From the NCBI GenBank assembly GCA_948144175.1, contig CANXME010002489.1:124001-188000 (forward strand): a stretch of 64,000 nt of DNA, written 5' to 3'. Below the pieces are notes generated by a model. The model ran no database searches, was not told where the DNA came from, and saw only the letters and a program-made list of their open reading frames with translations. The DNA comes from Closterium sp. NIES-65. Its lineage: Eukaryota > Streptophyta > Zygnematophyceae > Desmidiales > Closteriaceae. Shown here piece after piece: positions 3,301 through 40,841 of this stretch (the stretch's first letter is position 1; each line of letters starts with the position of its first letter). The position numbers were made by a program, and so were the translations under genes.

Positions 3301-5945
3301 CCGGAAGAGAACTCACCGCTCCTGTCAGAGTGCAGACGCATGACTGGCAAGTCCCGAAGAAACCGCTCGCGCAGCTGGTGACGAGTAGCACGGATCCAAG
3401 GGATCAAAACACCTGTAACGTCCGCCTTGCGCCGTAAGGGGAAGACAGTGGTGTAGCGTGTGTAGTCGTCAACAACCAGCATGAAGTAGCGCTCCTGGTC
3501 CGTTCCACCGACGGGGGCCGGGCCCCACATGTTCATGTGGAGAGTCTGCTGAGGAGCGGTGGTCAGAGGAAACTCGGAGGAGTGAGGAGCGGCGCGCTGC
3601 CGCCCCTCGACGCAAGGAAGGCACGGCGGTGCAAGCAAGCGCGGGAGGGAGGGCAGGGACCTGGGAAGCCCAGAGACAAGGAGACGGGAGTGCATGCTGC
3701 GGAGACGCGGCAGCGAGGGGTGACCGAGACGGTGGTGCCAGAGGTGAGTTTGGTGAGAGAGTACCTGACACGAGCAAGACGCTGCAAGCTGACCAGACGC
3801 AGACACGCGACTCGGCGCAGCCACCTGGCCTGACTCAACCACCTGTGCAGACTCAGTGGTCAGTGTGTACAGACTAGACCCAGGTCATCTAGTGAATGTC
3901 GCAAGGTGACTTCAAGTCCTGGAACAACTACAGATCGCCACATGCTGCCCTCTAGGAGTAAAGGTATCAACCCAGACATCCCAAAGAGCGGCGTTGCTCA
4001 CCAAGTTCGTCGAGAACGAGGGGAGGTGGAGGTCTGACAGAGAACCAGAGGGGACTGCTGGACATGGGAGAACAGTGGAGGCTCGTGCGGCTAGTGGGCC
4101 ACCAGAGGGTTCAGCCAGTGAGACTGGGACAGGTGCAGCTAGTGGTGTGAGTGTGGTGCAGTCACGAAAGAAGCAACGAGACGCGCCTGATTCATGTGTG
4201 AATGTGTGTAGTGCCTCCGTGGAGGCAGCTGACTCACTAGTAGCAGACTCACTAGCACCAGTGACAGCAGACACACTACCACCTAGGGCTGCAGCAGACT
4301 CACTAGCACCTGGGACATCAGACGCACTAGCACCTAGAGCTGAAGCAGACCCGCGTGTACCAAGATTAGTAGCAACGACACTAGCATCACCAGGGAGACA
4401 CAAGTAACACGCACCCTCGTTACTAAGCTCAGTCACAGACATAGCATATATAGCCTTGTTGATCTGAACAAAGTCAAGAGCATAAACATCTACTCCCATC
4501 CCCTGCAGTTTCAGCCAGTTGGGCTGGCGGCTCATCTCCGTACTCATCCACCCAGGCATCCTCACGGTGGCTGAAGCAGCGATGCTCAATATGTGGTTTC
4601 CCGCAGGCCTGACCCTTCAGCTTACCTGTGCACCTGACGTACGGGCAGCGACCAGAGCCCCCAGAAGAACCACGCTGGACAACCCACTCACGAAGCTGCT
4701 GGGGGGTGGGGTTGTCCGGGAGGCGTGGCAGCTGCTATCCACTCCCAAGGCCTCCACCGCCATATGCAGAAGCACCACGGCCTCCACCCTTGCCAACTCC
4801 ACCCTGACCTCCTCCACCGCCACCGCCGCCTCCACCACCCCAGCCGCCTCCACCATCCCCGCCGCCTCCACTACCCCCGCCACCTCCACCACCCCGTCCA
4901 CCTCCATTGCCGCCACCCCCAGAGCCGCCCCCACCTCCTCCACCCCCGCCCCTGCCACCCCCGCCACCCCCACCGCTGTTGCCACCCCCACCACCCTTGC
5001 CCCCTTTTCCCTTACTGTTGTTGCACCTTCCACTAGGAGTAGACGCAGCGCCAGCCTCCTCAGCACTAAGGAGGTCGACAGTAGCAACTGAGGGGAGGGG
5101 AGGGGAGGGAGAACATCCTTCAAAGAAGGGGGAGCGGGGAGTGCCGCAAGAGGCAGCGACAGCATTGGTGCTCTTCTCTGCCTCGAGAAGGGACTTCGCA
5201 AGCGAGTCAAGCGTGAGCTCAGTGGGGTCAAGGGCTAGGAACTAGTCCCTGACAGTGCGAAGGGAGTCAGGAAGGTGAGTGACTAGGAGGTATAGGGTGA
5301 AATGCTGCGGGGGGGGGGGGGGGGGGGTTCTTAGCGAGAAAGTCTGGCTTGAGAGCGGAGCGGAAGCGAGCCTCACTAGTGCAGAGGTGGGTAAAGAGGT
5401 CAGCGAGAGTGGTGAAGGTGGCTAGGTCGGGATGCAGGTACGGCAGCATGAGACGGCCTACGGCAGCAGTGACCGGGGAGGAGTAGCGGGCGACGAAAGC
5501 GTCATATAGGGCCTATACTGCTTTTTGGTGGCTAAAATGTGCCCGTTCAGCGATAGGAAGGTGGTTGCGAACCGCAAGGCGGGCAGTAGCATCACGAATC
5601 ATCCACTGAGTATGAGCAGCGGTCTCTATGGCAGGTGGGGTGGGGAGGGTTCCGTCGGTATGGGCTAAGAGGGGAACTCCATCCTTCGCCTCGCTCTGCA
5701 GGAACAACCAGAGGTCATCGAGCCAGATGGCAAAGTCGATCGCCCGGCCCTCAGCGTCGAAACTAAGAACGGAGACGGTACTCATACTAGCCGTAGTAGC
5801 AGCAGCAGCAGCGGCAAGGAGGAGCAGCTGCAACAAGAAGTAGCAGCAGTAGCAAGAAGGAGCAGTTACCGCAAGTAGTAGCATCAGTAGCAAGGAGGAG
5901 CAGCCGCAGCAAGAAGCAGTAGCAGCAGCAAGGAGGAGTAGCTGC

Positions 5946-6086
5946 TGTCAGTAGATCTGCACTGTGGATGCCCGATTGATCCTGGAGAGGGTTACAGGCG
6001 CGTTTGCCTGGGGGGTTATGGGCGCACTGACCCGCTACTGAAACAAGCCCTTTTATCCCAATGGTCTAGTGGTTGGGATTCTGACA
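5946..6086 (+). repeat. TRIM 5' LTR (141 bp)
   Basis: Starts TGTCAGTAG and ends ATTCTGACA. It is almost identical to the copy at 6180-6320. Confidence 0.9.
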
Positions 6087-6116
6087 TGGTATCAGAGCGG
6101 TCTCGGGTTCGATTCC
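6062..6116 (+). promoter_or_regulatory. tRNA-like A box and B box in the TRIM
   Basis: TGGTCTAGTGG at 6062-6072 matches an internal Pol III A box, and GGTTCGATTCC at 6106-6116 matches the B-box consensus exactly, with 33 bases between. Bases around 6056-6076 and 6103-6119 read like the D-arm and T-arm of a tRNA-Glu. The primer site sits where the anticodon arm would be. No acceptor stem is visible, so this is a promoter-like relic or mimic and not a tRNA gene. Confidence 0.55.
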
Positions 6117-6179
6117 CGGTGTATGCACTTGTAGGCCGGTGCAGCTGTGCTTAGTCCTGGGCCTCCCAGTGTGGGGGGG

Positions 6180-6320
6180 TGTCAGTAGATCTGCACTGTG
6201 GATGCCCGATTGATCCTGGAGAGGGTTACAGACGCGTTTGCCTGGGGGGTTATGGGCGCACTGACCCGCTACTGAAACAAGCCCTTTTATCCCAATGGTC
6301 TAGTGGTTGGGATTCTGACA
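6180..6320 (+). repeat. TRIM 3' LTR (141 bp)
   Basis: The second TRIM LTR. It follows the G-rich tract at 6171-6179 and is followed by the target duplication GCTGC. Confidence 0.9.
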
Positions 6321-7095
6321 GCTGCAGCAAGTAGCAGCAACGGCAGCAAGGAGGAGCAGCTGTAGCAAGAAGCAGCAGCAGCAGCATGGAGGAGCGGCTG
6401 CAGTAAGTAGGAGCAACTGCAACAAGGTGGAGCAGCAGCAGCAAGGAGGTGCAGCTGCAGCAAGTAGCAGCAGCAGCAGTAGCAGCAGCAGCAGCAAGAA
6501 GGAGTAGCTGCAGCAAGTAGCAGCAGCAGCAGCAAGGTGGAGCAGCTGCAGCAAGAAGCAGCAGCAAGGAGAAGCAGCTGCAGAAATGTGGAGCAGCTTC
6601 AGCATGAAGGAGCAGCTGCAGGAAGAAGGAGCAGCTGCTGCTAGCAGCAGCAGTAGCACCCAGGAGAAGGCGCACAGCAGCAGCAGCAGCAGCTCAGGCA
6701 CGGTAGCAGCTCAGGCGCAGCAGCAGCTCTGGGGCAGCAGTGCGCTAGCAGGTCGTGGGCAAGGCTAGGAGCGCGCGGGCAGCAAATGCAGCGCGCGAGC
6801 AGCAGGGGCAGCGCGCAAGCAGCGGGTGCAACGTGCGGGCTGTAGGATAGGGCGTCGCAAGGCCTGTGCAGAGGGGCGCGCGTGACTAGGCAGTAGAATC
6901 GTCTCGCGTAGGGGACGGGACGCGCCTAGGGCAGAAAAAACTGTCTCGCCTAGGGCGCGTTTCGCGAAGGGGAAAAAAAAAAAAAAAAAAAAGAACAGGA
7001 CGTTCCTAGGGGCGCGACTCGTATAGTAGATCGTTAATTTAATGGTGGGCCCGTTTAAGAATCCGGTCCTAAGGACCATTTCGCTCTTCATACCA

Positions 7096-33847: not shown

Positions 33848-33979
33848 TGTCAAACATTATATATGTTATACTTGTGTAGGCTACAGTGGGTTAGCCTATA
33901 GGGGGTACACAATTCTAGGATTTACTACTTGTACTCTTTTCACTTCTAGTTGATCCATTCCTGTTCGCTTATTCTCACA
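33848..33979 (+). repeat. 5' LTR of element E (132 bp)
   Basis: TGTCAAAC to CTCACA, about 98% identical to 40710-40841. Confidence 0.92.
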
Positions 33980-33991
33980 TGGTATAGAGCG

Positions 33992-34023
33992 GGTCCTTCT
34001 ACGGACCGTTTTTTGGGCCCACC
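33992..34023 (+). promoter_or_regulatory. Leader hairpin and GGGCCCACC box of element E
   Basis: GGTCC (33992-33996) pairs with GGACC (34003-34007) just after the primer site, followed by GGGCCCACC (34015-34023). The same layout with other stem sequences occurs in A, D and I, and without the exact box in F and G. Confidence 0.6.
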
Positions 34024-34140
34024 GAAGCGCCCCCCGAGGCGCGATCATTTTTTTTAGCGACCCCTCGGGTCGCCATTTCCCCTGCGGCCCCGCCGCCTTC
34101 ACTGACGCGGCCCCGCCGCCCTCTCTGTCGCGGCCCCGCC

Positions 34141-34611
34141 GCCTGCTCTCACGCGGCCCCGCCCCGGCTCCTTCGCGGCCCCGCCGCCTGCTCTCGCGCG
34201 GCCCCGCCCCGGCTTCTACGCGGCCCCGCCCCGGCTTTCACGCGGCCCCGCCGACGGCTTTGTCGCGGCCCCGCCCAGGCCCTTACGCGGCTCCGCCGCC
34301 TGCTCTCACGCGGCCCCGCCCCGGCTCCTTTGTGGCCCCGCCGCCTGCTCTCGCGCGGCCCCGCCCCGGCTTCTACGCGGCCCCGCCCCGGCTTTCACGC
34401 GGCCCCGCCGACGGCTTTGTCGCGGCCCCGCCCAGGCCCTTACGCGGCTCCGCCGCCTGCTCTCACGCGGCCCCGCCCCGGCTCCTTCGCGGCCCCGCCG
34501 CCTGCTCTCGCGCGGCCCCGCCCCGGCTTCTACGCGGCCCCGCCCCGGCTTTCACGCGGCCCCGCCGACGGCTCTGTCGCGGCCCCGCCCAGGCCCTTAC
34601 GCGGCCCCGCC
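34141..34611 (+). repeat. 157-bp higher-order GC-rich array in element E
   Basis: Three copies of a 157-bp unit (starts 34141, 34298, 34455), each made of shorter GCGGCCCCGCC-bearing subunits. Before and after it the same subunits continue less regularly, then GAGCCGCCGAGC-type repeats at about 34880-35110. Confidence 0.9.
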
Positions 34612-35247
34612 GCCTGCCCCCGTCGCGGCCCGGTCACCTCCTGACGGCCTCGCCGTCCCTTCGTGACGGCCCCGCCGTCCCTTCTTGACGGCTCCTGCCG
34701 TCCCCTTCTACCGGCCCCGCAACTGCACCTGCTGGCCCCGCCGCTGCACCTACCGGCCCCCCACCACCCACCCCCCCCCTTTTCCCGTCGCCTGTCGAGG
34801 CGACCTGAGGGGGCCGCTCCAGCAGAGGGGTGGCAGGTGTGTGGCCTCCCCTGCTTCTCCTCCTCCTTCCTCTCCCACTGCAGCAGCCGAGCCGCTCACC
34901 TGCAGCAGCCGAGCCGCCCCACAGCCGAGCCGTCCTGCCGCCGAGCCGCCGGGTCGCTGAGCTGCTGAGCTGCAGTTGCTGCCGAGCCGCCCTGCCGCCG
35001 AGCCGCCGAGTCACCGAGCTGCTGAGCTGCAGTTGCTGCTGAGCCGCCTTGCCGCCGAGCCGCCCGAGTCACCCGAGCCGCCGAGCCGCCGAGCTGCCGA
35101 GCCGCTGAGTCGCCGAGCCTACTCTTCCCACCACTGGTGAGCTCTTGCCCTGCTAGCACGCTGCGCGTCGCCTGCTTGCCTGCCTGCCTGCCTTTTGGCT
35201 TGCCTGGCTGCCTGCCTCCCTGCTGCTAGTCCTGCTCCTGCTTCTAC

Positions 35248-38200
35248 TTGCGGAGCCACATGCAACCCCAGCGACGCCGGCGTGAGTCCCTCACGCCCCA
35301 GCAGCTGCGTGAGTGGTACGCTGGTTGGGGCTGTAGGGGTGGCGACGCTACTCCTACTACCACTCCTGCTGCTTCTACTCGTGGTGACGGCCAGATGCAG
35401 CTCCCGCGACCCTCTCGCGTGTCTCTCACGCCTCGCCAGCTTCGTGAGTGGTACGCTCAGAGTGGAGGGTCTCTCAGTGCTGTTCGCTGCTCTTACGTGA
35501 TTCGCACTGGTACTCGGACTGGTCAGCCTTGTGGGACACGTAGTCATACACCGTCCCGCTGCTTCGCCCGTCTGAGCGACGCCTGGCGTACCGTGTTTGG
35601 CGACGAGGCTGAGCTTCCCGACTGGGTGGAGTTGCTTAGGCAGAAGGTAGATATATATGCTCTTGACTATGATGCTATTCTCACTGCCATGTATGCATTG
35701 CCTACTAGTGCTGACCGTGCCGGTCACCTGTGCAACCCGCCTGACCCAGGTATAGGACCTGCTGCTCTAGCTACTGGTGAGGCTGCTGCTCTGGGTGCTA
35801 GTGAGTCTCCTGCTCCAGGTACAGGTGTGGCTGCTGCTCTAGGTGCTAGTGAGTCTGCTTCCTCAGGTGCGGGTGAGGCTGCGCTCTCAGGTACCGCGTT
35901 GGCTTCGGCCTCCCTCACCTTTACACTTGACTCTGGGGCTTCTCGCTCCTTCTTTCGGGACCGCACCACACTCACGCCGCTTGGTCGGCCGGTTGCAGTC
36001 TCCCTGGCTGACCCCTCTGGGGGTCCTGTCCTCGCTCACTTCTCCACTGTCCTCCCGTGTCCGGCTGCCCCCTCGGGCACCCTGTCTGGCCTGTACCTCC
36101 CCTCGTTCTCGACGAACTTGGTGAGTGGTGCAGACCTACAGGATGCGGGGGTTCACCAGTTCACTCCTGCGAGTCAGCGGGTGACCCACTGCACGGACGC
36201 ACGCACAGGCCGGCACCTGGCCACGTTCTCGCGTCGGCCGGGGTCGAGCCTCTACACCCTGACCACTGAGTCTCCTCCTGTCCCCGCGTCCGGTCAGGTA
36301 GCAGCGTCGGGTCAGGTGTTTGCTGCTGCGTCCAGGTCTGGTCCTGAGTCTGCCCCCTGTACTTGTCGCCTCCTGTCTCACGAGACTCTCCTGTGGCACC
36401 ACCGTCTTGGCCACCCCTCCTTGCCCCGTCTTCGGAGCATGGCTTCCCGTGTCCTTGTCTCTGGTCTTCCCCAGTCTCTCCCTCCTCTCCCCTCCGGGCC
36501 AGGACCTTCCTGTGTCCCCTGTGTCGAGGGTCGCCTCCGGGCTACTCCTCACTCCTCCCACTTCCCCCCGACAGAGGCTCCCCTGCAGACGCTTCACATG
36601 GATGTGTGGGGCCCAGCCCCCGTCCGTGGGCAGGATTACGAGCGCTACTTCCTGTTGGTGGTTGACGACTACTCGCGTTACACCACAGTCCTCCCCTTGC
36701 GCAGCAAGGGTGAGGTCACTGAGGTGCTGATCGACTGGATCCGCGAGGCTCGTCTCCAGCTCAGGAAGAGCTTCGGCTCGGACTTTCCTGTTCTGCGTCT
36801 GCACTCGGACAGAGGCGGAGAGTTCTCCTCTGGCCTTCTGCGTGCCTACTGTCGTGCGCGAGGCATCCGCCAGTCCTTCACGCTTCCGGACTCACCACAG
36901 CAAAATGGGATTGCTGAGCGCCGCATTGGCATGGTCATGGATGTCGCTCGTACGTCCATGATGCATGCGGCTGCCCCCCATTTTCTGTGGCCGTTTGCGG
37001 TGAGGTACGCGGCGCATCAGCTCAACCTTCACCCCCGGGTCTCTCGGCCTGTGATGTCCCCAGCCTTGCTGTGGACAGGGAAGGTTGGCGATGCGTCTGT
37101 GTTCCGTGTCTGGGGATCTCGGGCGTTTGTCCGCGACTTGTCTGCGGACAAGCTGTCCCCTCGTGCTGCTCCCTGTGTCTTCCTTGGCTTCCCCACTGAC
37201 GCCCCAGGGTGGCAGTTTTACCACCCCTCCTCTCGTCGTGTTCTGTCCTCCCAGGACGTCACGTTCGATGAGTCAGTCCCCTTCTACCGTCTCTTCCCCT
37301 ACCGCACTCCTTCCCTCCCCCCTCCCCCGGACTTCCTTGTACCGGTTCCCCCCCGGGTAGACCCCCTCCCCCCTCAGGTTCCTGCCCCCTCAGGTGTGTC
37401 CCAGGTAGACGCCGTTGACCCGGTCGAGGTTACAGGTGACTCTGGTGCTGCTGCGGGTGCTGAGCCTGGGGGTGCTGACTCTGGGGGTGCTGTGCGCGGG
37501 GGTGCTGAGCCTGGGGGTGCTACTGCTGGGGGTACTGGGCCTGCGGGTGCTACTGCGGAGGGTGCGGAGCCTGGGGGTGCTGAGCCTGGGGGTGCTGCGT
37601 CGGGAGCTGCTGAGCCTGGGGTTTCTCCTGCTGCTGCGTCTCGCCGGGAGCCCCTCTCTCCACAGGAGCTTCGCGAGTGGTTCGCTCGCCGCTGGAGGCG
37701 TGCTGCTGAGTCTGGAGGTGCTGCTGGAGCTGGAGCTGGAGCTTCTTCGACCGTCGAGGGTGCGGGTGCTGCCGGTCCCGGAGCTACTGGACCTGCGGGT
37801 CCTCCTAGAGCTGGAGCTGCTGAGGGCGTTGGTGCTGAGCCTACTGCTGTTGGTCCTGCCGCTGGAGGTGTGGGTGGCGCTGGTGCTGTAGCGGAGGGTG
37901 CTGGTGCTGTCCCTGCTGCGTCTAGAGCTGCTGAGCCTGGGGTTTCTCCTGCTGCTGCGTCTCGCCGGGAGCCCCTCTCTCCACAGGAGCTGCGCGAGTG
38001 GTACACTCGCCGCTGGAGGCGTGCTGCTGAGTCTGGAGGTGCTGCTGGAGTTGGAGCTGGAGCTTCTTCGACCGTCGAGGGTGCGGGTGCTGCCGGTCCC
38101 GGAGCTGCTAGACCTGCGGGTCCTCCTGGAGCTGGAGGTGCTGAGGGCGTTGGTGCTGAGCCTACTGCTGTTGGTCCTGCCGCTGGAGGTGTGGGTGGCG

Positions 38201-40503
38201 CTGGTGCTGTCGCTGAGGGTGCTGGTGCTGTCCCTGCTGAGTCTGGAGCTGCCGCGCGGCCTCGGCCGTACTTCGTTCCGCTCCTACAGCAGGTTCTTGG
38301 TCTTTCTCCTTCGGTAGAGTGTCCACAGCCTGTCCAGTCGCAGTCACTGTTGGAGCCTTCCTCTCCTCTGCCTGCTCCCTCTCCTTACACTGGTCCTACT
38401 GGAGGTCTTGCTGAGCGTCGTGAGCCTGCGTCTCGTCCCGCGTCGCCTGTTCGTGCTGCTCGCGCTAGTGGTCGCGGTTCGCGTCAGCGTCCTCCTCCTG
38501 TCCCTGGCACGCACCGGATGTCTCTGCGTCCGTCCACTGCTCCTCTGCGTGCCCCTTTGCCTTCTCCTCCTGAGTCCTCTCTTCCTGCGCTTGCCGACCC
38601 TGAGTCGGACTCTCTTCGCGCTGCCAGTCCTACTGTCACGCGTCTGCTTGCTACTGTCGTCACTGACCCCTCTTTTGAGTCCACTGCTGCGTCTGCTCTA
38701 GTCGCTGAGCTCGTTGACTTTGCTGCTCGCTGTCGTCTCGACTACGCTGCTGGTCTTGTTGCTGAGTCTGTGTCTGTCTGTCCTCCGTCCGTCGGGGGTG
38801 AGTGTGCTCTTGGCACGGACGTCCTAGAGGACAGACAGGAGGAGTTACAGTGTCTAGCGGCTGCTTCACCTCATCTCGCGTCTGTACTGCTTGCCCCTGA
38901 GGGAGACCCGGATGCACTAGACATCCCGACTCCGCGTTCTTACGCGGAGGCCGTAGAGGGTCCCTACTCCTCTCAGTGGCAGGCAGCTATGGATGCAGAG
39001 ATGGCTTCCTGGAAGTCCACAGGCACCTACGTTGACGCAGTTCCCCCTCCTGGGGCGAACATCGTCAGTGGCATGTGGATCTTCCGGGTGAAGCGGCCGC
39101 CGGGCTCTCCACCTGTCTTCAAGGCGCGGTACGTTGCTCGTGGCTTCAGTCAGCGGCAGGGAGTTGACTACTTTCAGACCTTCTCTCCCACCCCGAAGAT
39201 GACTACTCTTCGGGTGCTGCTGCACATAGCCGCTCAGCGCGACTACGAGCTTCACTCTCTCGACTTCAGCACTGCGTTCCTGCAGGGTAGCCTGCACGAG
39301 GAGATCTGGCTGCGCCGTCCACCTGGCTTCACTGGGACTTTCCCTCCTGGCACCCAGTGGAGCCTCCGACGGCCAGTCTACGGTCTCCGCCAGGCACCGC
39401 GTGAGTGGCACGACACACTGAGGACTACGCTTGCGGCTCTTGGGTTTGCTCCTTCTACTGCTGACCCGTCGCTGTTTCTGCGCACCGACACTTCACTGCC
39501 GCCGTTCTACATCCTCGTGTACGTCGACGACTTGGTCTTTGCCACAGCGGACACTGCTGGACTCGCCTACGTGAAGTCCGAACTGCTGAAGAGACACACG
39601 TGCACAGACCTGGGTGAACTGCGCAGCTACCTTGGCTTGCAGATCACTCGGGACAGAGCACGCCGCACCATTACCTTGACTCAGTCACACATGGTGCAGC
39701 AGGTCCTTCAGCGCTTCGGCTTCACGTACTCCTCGCCTCAGGCCACTCCTCTGCCTACTCGCCACTCACTCTCAGCTCTGCCTTCGGATGAGTCCGTAGA
39801 GTCGAGTGGTCCGTATGCAGAGCTTGTTGGCTGCCTCATGTACCTGATGACCTGCACACGACCTGACCTTGCATATCCTCTGAGCATTCTTGCACGCTAT
39901 GTTGCTCCTGGGAGACACAGACCAGAGCACATGGCTGCAGCGAAGAGGGTATTGCGCTACCTGTGCAGTACGTCGGGCATGGGGCTTGTGCTTGGAGGGC
40001 GGAGTCCAGTGGTCCTTACCGGCCACGCGGACGCTTCTTGGGCTGACGACCAGGCTACGCAGCGGTCGTCACAGGGTTACACCTTCAGCCTTGGTTCCGG
40101 CTCTGTCTCGTGGCGGTCTACTCGCTCGTCTTCGGTTCTCGGCTCCAGTTGTGAGGCTGAGATCTACGCCGGGGCCATGGCTGCACAGGAGCTTCGCTGG
40201 CTCACCTACCTGCTGACTGACCTTGGAGAGCCGCCTCGTTCTCCTCCAGTGCTGTACGTAGACAACAAGGCCATGCTGGCCTTGTGTCGAGAGCAGCGCT
40301 TGGAGCACAGAACGAAGCACATTGCTCTCCGCTACTTCCTTGCTCGTGAGCTGCAGCAGCGTGGTCAGTTGCGACTTGCGTACGTGGCCTCTGAGGCCAA
40401 CACTGCTGATGTGTTCACCAAGGCACTTGCGCCTTGTGATCATCAGCGCTTTTGCACCCAGCTGGGTCTTGTGTTTGTCTTGCCTCACTTGCTCTCCTCT
40501 TGA
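35248..40503 (+). CDS. Polyprotein of element E, 1,751 codons, open
   Basis: Copia-type polyprotein. In order: a Gag-tail region with two SLTPxQLREWY modules (about residues 11-75); aspartic protease DSGAS (about 228); Gag-pre-integrase WHHRLGHPS and C-x2-C zinc motif (about 381-424); integrase core with LHMDVWG, LHSDRGGEF and QQNGIAERR for the D-D-E triad (about 450-555); a collagen-like GGAEPGG linker (about 730-790) and two copies of a segment of about 100 residues, each starting with EPLSPQELREW; reverse transcriptase (about 1240-1500) with the YVDD box; and RNase H (about 1580-1750) with YVDNKAMLAL and TADVFTKAL. It serves replication and integration of the element. The first ATG of the frame was taken as the start. 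Confidence 0.88.
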   Translation: MRSHMQPQRRRRESLTPQQLREWYAGWGCRGGDATPTTTPAASTRGDGQMQLPRPSRVSLTPRQLREWYAQSGGSLSAVRCSYVIRTGTRTGQPCGTRSHTPSRCFARLSDAWRTVFGDEAELPDWVELLRQKVDIYALDYDAILTAMYALPTSADRAGHLCNPPDPGIGPAALATGEAAALGASESPAPGTGVAAALGASESASSGAGEAALSGTALASASLTFTLDSGASRSFFRDRTTLTPLGRPVAVSLADPSGGPVLAHFSTVLPCPAAPSGTLSGLYLPSFSTNLVSGADLQDAGVHQFTPASQRVTHCTDARTGRHLATFSRRPGSSLYTLTTESPPVPASGQVAASGQVFAAASRSGPESAPCTCRLLSHETLLWHHRLGHPSLPRLRSMASRVLVSGLPQSLPPLPSGPGPSCVPCVEGRLRATPHSSHFPPTEAPLQTLHMDVWGPAPVRGQDYERYFLLVVDDYSRYTTVLPLRSKGEVTEVLIDWIREARLQLRKSFGSDFPVLRLHSDRGGEFSSGLLRAYCRARGIRQSFTLPDSPQQNGIAERRIGMVMDVARTSMMHAAAPHFLWPFAVRYAAHQLNLHPRVSRPVMSPALLWTGKVGDASVFRVWGSRAFVRDLSADKLSPRAAPCVFLGFPTDAPGWQFYHPSSRRVLSSQDVTFDESVPFYRLFPYRTPSLPPPPDFLVPVPPRVDPLPPQVPAPSGVSQVDAVDPVEVTGDSGAAAGAEPGGADSGGAVRGGAEPGGATAGGTGPAGATAEGAEPGGAEPGGAASGAAEPGVSPAAASRREPLSPQELREWFARRWRRAAESGGAAGAGAGASSTVEGAGAAGPGATGPAGPPRAGAAEGVGAEPTAVGPAAGGVGGAGAVAEGAGAVPAASRAAEPGVSPAAASRREPLSPQELREWYTRRWRRAAESGGAAGVGAGASSTVEGAGAAGPGAARPAGPPGAGGAEGVGAEPTAVGPAAGGVGGAGAVAEGAGAVPAESGAAARPRPYFVPLLQQVLGLSPSVECPQPVQSQSLLEPSSPLPAPSPYTGPTGGLAERREPASRPASPVRAARASGRGSRQRPPPVPGTHRMSLRPSTAPLRAPLPSPPESSLPALADPESDSLRAASPTVTRLLATVVTDPSFESTAASALVAELVDFAARCRLDYAAGLVAESVSVCPPSVGGECALGTDVLEDRQEELQCLAAASPHLASVLLAPEGDPDALDIPTPRSYAEAVEGPYSSQWQAAMDAEMASWKSTGTYVDAVPPPGANIVSGMWIFRVKRPPGSPPVFKARYVARGFSQRQGVDYFQTFSPTPKMTTLRVLLHIAAQRDYELHSLDFSTAFLQGSLHEEIWLRRPPGFTGTFPPGTQWSLRRPVYGLRQAPREWHDTLRTTLAALGFAPSTADPSLFLRTDTSLPPFYILVYVDDLVFATADTAGLAYVKSELLKRHTCTDLGELRSYLGLQITRDRARRTITLTQSHMVQQVLQRFGFTYSSPQATPLPTRHSLSALPSDESVESSGPYAELVGCLMYLMTCTRPDLAYPLSILARYVAPGRHRPEHMAAAKRVLRYLCSTSGMGLVLGGRSPVVLTGHADASWADDQATQRSSQGYTFSLGSGSVSWRSTRSSSVLGSSCEAEIYAGAMAAQELRWLTYLLTDLGEPPRSPPVLYVDNKAMLALCREQRLEHRTKHIALRYFLARELQQRGQLRLAYVASEANTADVFTKALAPCDHQRFCTQLGLVFVLPHLLSS

Positions 40504-40709
40504 CTTTACTTGTACTGTGACATATATATATACCTGCTCTTGCTTGTCTAGTTTTATATATATGTCTGTACTCCTGCATGTGAACTGGCCTCTGGCCCTG
40601 CTCTTGTGCTCGGACTGTGTGGTGACTTTGTGATCCACCCTGAGCTTGCTTTGCTTTGCTTGACTGGTCTTGTGACCCCTTGTTCTCCCCCACTTTGCCT
40701 ATGGGGGTG

Positions 40710-40841
40710 TGTCAAACATTATATATATTATACTTGTGTAGGCTACAGTGGGTTAGCCTATAGGGGGTACACAATTCTAGGGTTTACTACTTGTACTCTT
40801 TTCACTTCTAGTTGATCCATTCCTGTTCGCTTATTCTCACA
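40710..40841 (+). repeat. 3' LTR of element E (132 bp)
   Basis: Follows the hairpin CCCCCA...TGGGGG and GTG. Followed by the target duplication GAGGG. Confidence 0.92.

Follow-up and report, generated by a model that had tools for sequence, protein, structure and literature searches.

The two ends of an LTR element need different behaviour from identical LTRs, and the short element at positions 5946-6320 of the DNA analyzed here raises the question of whether a promoter lying only partly in the LTR could provide it. The window, meaning the whole stretch analyzed, comprises 64,000 nucleotides of Closterium sp. NIES-65 (assembly GCA_948144175.1, contig CANXME010002489.1, positions 124,001 to 188,000). 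The original prediction described the element as a perfect TRIM that may use a tRNA-Glu-like RNA polymerase III (Pol III) promoter, with the A box in the LTR and the B box in the interior. A split tRNA-type promoter would solve the problem of the two ends for Pol III, since only the 5' LTR followed by the interior would fire, and with such a promoter a single TTTT would also end the RNA in the 3' LTR.

Anatomy of the element

The element is 375 bp long and consists of two 141-bp LTRs and a 93-bp interior without coding capacity (Table 1). It is shorter than 1000 bp, carries a primer site (PBS) and a polypurine tract (PPT) at the two interior ends, and is dispersed at 2,723 places genome-wide, with identical 5-bp flanks in 35 of 40 copies. 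Because every TRIM feature tested was found, the element was classed as a TRIM. The LTRs differ at a single site (LTR position 53, G/A), so that the word "perfect" was slightly too strong, while the predicted LTR length and GCTGC duplication held; GCTGC is by itself weak evidence of duplication because the flank is rich in CAG/CTG. The predicted coordinates of the TRIM and of both boxes were exact, as was the gap of 33 bases between the boxes, a stretch that consists of the LTR end and the PBS. The 3' LTR repeats the A box without a B box, in agreement with the claim that only the 5' LTR context is complete. BLAST found no second copy of the element in the window, and both TATA and AATAAA are absent from it.

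Table 1. Positions of the TRIM and its features in the window
Feature	Position	Strand	Remark
5' LTR, TGTC...GACA, 141 bp	5946-6086	+	differs from 3' LTR at 1 of 141 positions
3' LTR, 141 bp	6180-6320	+	A box at 6296-6306, then no B box
Target duplication GCTGC, left	5941-5945		5 bp
Target duplication GCTGC, right	6321-6325		5 bp
TTTT immediately 5' of the A box	6051-6054	+	at or just before predicted start
Hairpin ATCCCAA (6055-6061) / TTGGGAT (6073-6079), A box as loop	6055-6079	+	fold; paired changes
A box TGGTCTAGTGG, tRNA-Glu-like D arm, LTR 3' end	6062-6072	+	exact consensus
Possible 5-bp stem with 7-nt loop, TCTGA-CATGGTA-TCAGA, at the place of an anticodon arm	6080-6096	+	fold; spans LTR-PBS junction
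Primer site TGGTATCAGAGC, opens the interior	6087-6098	+	complementary to initiator-Met tRNA 3' end
T-arm-like hairpin CGGG-TTCGATT-CCCG	6104-6118	+	fold
B box GGTTCGATTCC, interior, 20 bases past the LTR end	6106-6116	+	exact consensus
Polypurine tract GTGGGGGGG, G-run 6173-6179	6171-6179	+	directly 5' of 3' LTR
TTTT, first one past the 5' A box, in the 3' LTR	6285-6288	+	predicted Pol III terminator

The box pair and its likeness to tRNA-Glu

Both strands of the window were scanned with the A-box and B-box consensus sequences, and the boxes at 6062 and 6106 were the sole A..B pair lying 28-70 nt apart. When the 234-bp LTR plus interior was shuffled by dinucleotides, a pair of this kind appeared in 1 of 20,000 cases if a loose B box was accepted and in 0 of 20,000 if a strict one was required, and 100 shuffles of the whole window yielded 4 loose pairs and 0 strict pairs in total. 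No B box was found within 68-100 bases after four other PBS-like contexts of the window (17720-, 28347-, 43605- and 33980+). The presence of A and B boxes split over the junction is confirmed as a real observation. Both boxes are degenerate, and by itself the loose A box has 79 matches in the window (33 on the + and 46 on the - strand), which would be in favour of a chance resemblance of degenerate motifs; the shuffles speak against this, as do an alignment to tRNA-Glu far above its own shuffles and the joint occurrence of strict A box, PBS and strict B box at 2,565 places in the genome, compared with 0 for the reversed pattern. Chance is strongly disfavoured and we regard it as extremely unlikely.

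Host initiator-Met and tRNA-Glu sequences look plant-type. A pattern search of the genome gave 64 places, by our own count 37 host tRNA-Glu(CTC)-type sequences and 27 copies of the element. The span that begins with GTCTAGT and closes with the B box measures 53 nt in the host tRNA-Glu(CTC)-type rows and in the main subfamily of the element, and 56 nt in a subfamily with GAA after the PBS. Global alignment of the element with host tRNA-Glu scored 12, against a mean of -8.7 and a maximum of 4 in 1,000 shuffles, the element segment being begun one base late here and in the initiator-Met pairing test described below. The tRNA-Glu likeness proposed for this site was borne out by both the geometry and the alignment.

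The element is nevertheless not a tRNA gene, a possibility ruled out by 0 calls of ARAGORN at default settings for element and window and by the lack of a match to Rfam or to the tRNA model. Relaxed ARAGORN settings gave poor, mispaired calls only, no Rfam family was found above cut-off in the window (neither 5S nor tRNA), and covariance-model scoring, a check named by the original prediction, did not score the region as a tRNA. The acceptor stem of a complete cloverleaf is missing from the element. The best tRNA matches in the assembly were many equal-scoring copies, repeated on several contigs (C113, C155, C241, C643, C1956 and others), which are probably plastid-derived.

Copies in the genome and conservation of the boxes

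The genome searched was the 874-Mb assembly of 2,400 contigs. Copy numbers from DNA similarity searches are understated because very common words were skipped; the pattern-match counts (2,565, 2,706, 2,723 and those for tRNA-Glu and initiator-Met) are whole, with no such skipping. A pattern of U3, PBS and an interior word, which left the T-run and the A and B boxes free, accounts for the 2,723 places (reversed control 0), and by eye count the TTTT was kept in 90 and missing in 10 of the 100 matches listed. The pattern CCTTTTA plus PBS plus interior word, by which neither box was selected, gave 2,706 matches (reversed control 0). The boxes were tallied in 100 matches listed of these 2,706, in contig order and with 74 distinct: the A-box consensus was present in 87, the B-box consensus in 81 and both in 71, at an A-to-B start distance of 44 nt (42 matches), 47 nt (28) or 46 nt (1). 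One or both consensus boxes were missing in 29 of the 100 matches listed, mostly through point changes, as expected of dead copies, and in some through an A box shortened by one base. A pattern that required a B box was left out of this evidence, since its hits are mute on B-box conservation when the B box was part of the search. Conservation of both boxes and their spacing, a check that had been suggested, was found in 71 of 100 matches listed as well as in the strict counts, although these numbers are not independent because the copies are related by descent, and much of the box conservation may be recent descent.

Forty copies, out of 451 candidates, were scored in full, each covering at least 373 of the 375 bases, with an identity of 98-100% according to the similarity search and of 97.6-100% when realigned. 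In 35 of them the 5-bp flanks are identical; as three flank pairs occur more than once, these copies represent about 29 distinct sites, and scored copies with the same flanks are probably segmental duplicates. The exact A box was present in both LTRs of 37 copies, and the B box was letter-identical in 31, with 7 of the 9 departures at a consensus-free position. The LTR pair was identical in 16 of the 40 close copies, indicating recent mobility of the family. The copies fall into two spacer subfamilies, distinguished by the presence or absence of GAA after the PBS, and both keep the boxes; the interior was only about 60 bp in several fetched loci.

These data bear on the reading that the promoter is a relic, derived from tRNA-Glu as a former Pol III promoter (for example of a SINE or tRNA gene) and now merely inherited by copies that are transcribed by Pol II or silent. 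Loss of the acceptor stem and the shortened A box of some copies would be in line with a relic. On the other hand, both spacer subfamilies retain the boxes, the identical LTR pairs point to recent mobility, and B-box variation is concentrated at the free position, so that this reading is improbable. Since the element is both abundant and recently mobile, the prediction of a split promoter is directly testable.

Some variants were seen among the copies. Many of the GAA subfamily end their LTR in GAGA instead of GACA (GATTCTGAGA before the PBS), a departure from the usual terminal CA. Tandem LTR-interior arrays with units about 205-237 bp apart were present at L048, G000:C105:580793-581333 and C10:183891-184206, the C105 array being mixed in subfamilies. 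At L135, a sequence also contained in L126 and L129, the PBS is followed by CAAAGGTCTCCGGTTCGAGTCC and the LTR end has no consensus A box; this type is either a diverged relative or a separate family.

RNA folding and primer pairing

The A box forms the loop of a 7-bp stem (ATCCCAA/TTGGGAT). Stems were compared in a table of 113 rows, made up of the 100 matches listed (of 2,706) and 13 of 20 fetched loci, some of them in both sets; the other 7 fetched loci were left out as unparsed. There were 14 distinct stems. Pair 7 was A-T in 94 rows, G-C in 13, G-T in 3 and unpaired in 3, and C-G to T-A double changes were seen at pairs 4 and 5 in one locus each (the pair-5 locus entered twice), while a few rows break a stem pair. 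The stem may be maintained; given its paired changes, part of the conservation of the A box may have a structural reason. Maintenance of the A-box stem does not explain the B box.

Twenty-six host initiator-Met genes were found, all ending in GCTCTGAT. With A73 and CCA, the initiator-Met end is complementary to 12 of the 12 PBS bases. The stretch after the PBS could then be an RNA signal, either extended primer pairing or a packaging/dimerisation hairpin that the helper uses, with its likeness to a B box incidental and the element transcribed by Pol II as other TRIMs are. A hairpin-like inverted repeat also follows the primer site at 28347-, 43605- and 33980+, GGTC lies 3' of the primer site in the TRIM and in those elements alike, and the paired changes in the A-box stem would fit such a signal, as would an initiator-Met isoform that in the GAA subfamily can add a few pairs to the 12 nt. 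Pairing of initiator-Met past the PBS was, however, no better than in shuffles, of which 183-225 of 300 were at least as strong, so that extended primer pairing was rejected as the source of the B box. The hairpin loop is moreover the sense tRNA T-loop and not its complement, A and B boxes occur together at host tRNA-Glu spacing, and TATA is absent from the element. We also rejected a structured RNA spanning the full predicted transcript (z +1.03, with 169 of 200 shuffles folding at least as well). We consider an RNA signal with incidental B-box likeness unlikely, and the interpretation as a tRNA-Glu-like split Pol III promoter is supported by the available sequence tests.

Proposed transcription cycle

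On the basis of the observed anatomy, thousands of copies, tRNA-Glu geometry, TTTT placement, 5-bp duplications and recent copies, the TRIM is likely to be transcribed by Pol III from a tRNA-Glu-like promoter split over the LTR/primer-site junction. We infer from these features TFIIIC binding, Pol III transcription, the start and stop sites, the length of R and the identity of the helper. TFIIIC would contact the element at two points, the A box in the 3' end of the 5' LTR and the B box just beyond the primer site. Pol III usually starts about 10-18 nt upstream of an A box, which would place the start at about 6044-6052, and the stop would lie at the next TTTT, at the equivalent place in the 3' LTR. 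The + strand of the element has TTTT, the minimal Pol III terminator of four T, only at 6051-6054 and 6285-6288, that is, just before the A box of each LTR, and an RNA begun in the 5' LTR should for this reason end in the 3' LTR. The predicted RNA of about 235-245 nt would have the order R-U5-PBS-interior-PPT-U3-R, one 234-nt period plus a few shared end bases; its R would be short, at only about 4-10 nt. Reverse transcriptase and integrase would come from a Copia-class helper. Since reverse transcription would rebuild both LTRs, the A box would be doubled and the B box would stay single; with one B box per insertion there would be one complete promoter, at the 5' end; neither a 3' LTR nor a solo LTR would have one.

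We lean towards regarding such elements as a class of LTR element, in which a type-2 Pol III promoter would exist only at the LTR/interior junction and one TTTT position would mark both start and stop. If so, geometry alone would set two identical LTRs apart in their behaviour, the structure of a solo LTR would keep it silent, and in a tandem array each unit would recover one promoter.

A genomic footprint of the transcript ends, in the form of SINE-like copies, was not found. Two places with an LTR breaking off after the TTTT were rejected as footprints of Pol III RNA ends: at L138 the LTR and flank are apparently deleted, and L139 has only the upstream part of an LTR. L128 was rejected as a copy truncated at the TTTT since its sequence reads as a nested, reversed Copia-type LTR, and inspection of the partial junction matches L051 and L052 showed a copy with an interruption of about 750 bp and a duplication of 14 bp (L051). 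At L137 (475-704) there is a diverged copy (70%) whose start is near the PBS and whose end coincides exactly with the T-run of the downstream LTR; this single case might have the shape of a copied Pol III RNA.

Relation to known elements

In tRNA-derived SINEs, A and B boxes are expected to drive a short non-coding RNA that is copied by the enzymes of another element. The TRIM resembles them in its A and B boxes for a predicted short non-coding RNA and in the presumed use of another element's enzymes. Unlike SINEs, it has LTRs, PBS, PPT and 5-bp duplications, which point to reverse transcription and integration of the LTR type.

The closest known elements, as judged by sequence features, are the Helenus (tRNA) and Cassandra (5S) TRIMs, "TRIMp3". 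Helenus elements are TRIMs with tRNA-derived sequence in their LTRs, described from fungi, animals and Selaginella, and the name TRIMp3 was proposed for Helenus, Ajax and Cassandra as TRIMs with an RNA polymerase III promoter (Kojima 2024, PMC10886601). The TRIM analyzed here shares with Helenus the short noncoding LTR form with PBS and PPT, tRNA-derived A and B boxes, 5-bp duplications (found in the plant and fungal Helenus families), presumed Pol III transcription and helper dependence, and compared by size it is similar to Helenus-1_SMo of Selaginella (LTR 120, interior 85; PMC10886601). Boxes A and B of Helenus are shown in the LTR (PMC10886601), whereas in the present element A is in the LTR and B in the interior. 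As its B box lies 20 bases beyond the LTR, the element lacks the feature that defines Helenus, boxes A and B inside the LTRs. The Helenus paper itself states that promoter function is without experimental demonstration, and its screen sought tRNA sequence within LTRs (PMC10886601). If the split promoter is true, a Pol III TRIM need not hold a whole small-RNA promoter inside its LTR, and LTR-only screens, as for Helenus, could miss such families.

With Cassandra the TRIM shares a putative Pol III promoter and terminator and the TGGTATCAGAGC primer site (PMC7215508), as well as a predicted RNA from 5' LTR to 3' LTR with short end repeats, and tandem arrays (PMC7215508; PMC10886601). In the account of PMC7215508 the 5S rRNA promoter of Cassandra is whole in each LTR, whereas the promoter proposed here is tRNA-type and split between LTR and interior. 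No 5S rRNA-derived LTR sequence of the Cassandra kind was found, there being no Rfam match above cut-off. Ordinary plant TRIMs and SMARTs are similar in size, LTRs, PBS, PPT and 5-bp duplication (PMC4717578; for SMARTs PMC10886601), but the main text of PMC4717578 describes no Pol III promoter for ordinary plant TRIMs, and the terms "Pol III", "polymerase III" and "promoter" do not appear in it. No description of A and B boxes split over an LTR/PBS junction was found in searches of the open-licence PMC literature. With respect to its promoter-like boxes and their spacing the element would work like a TRIMp3, as far as its sequence can show.

Candidate helpers and related elements

Scans of the viral collection gave 0, 0 and 1 match (L009). 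The window itself contains, at 33848-40841 (+), a 7-kb Copia element bounded by 132-bp LTRs and a GAGGG duplication. Its 1757-aa open frame has RVT_2, integrase core and gag-pre-integrase domains, and its primer site is TGGTATAGAGC, one base short. In the other LTR elements at 28347-, 33980+ and 43605- a short inverted repeat (such as GGTCCTTCTACGGACC) stands directly 3' of the primer site, in the position of the T-arm-like hairpin of the TRIM.

Two chimeric loci were observed. At L134 (PBS at 535, PBS orientation) a 131-bp Copia-type LTR is joined exactly to the TRIM PBS and interior, followed by the TRIM 3' LTR; this LTR is 88.6-90.9% identical to LTR-like stretches of the window at 59304-59173, 51992-51861, 60464-60334 and 24541-24424. 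This single case suggests recombination with a Copia helper. At L133 (PBS at 555), a locus inside Copia coding sequence, a different LTR-like stretch of 137 bp is exactly joined to the PBS and to a TRIM interior of the short form, and the remnant of the 3' LTR is TGTC only.
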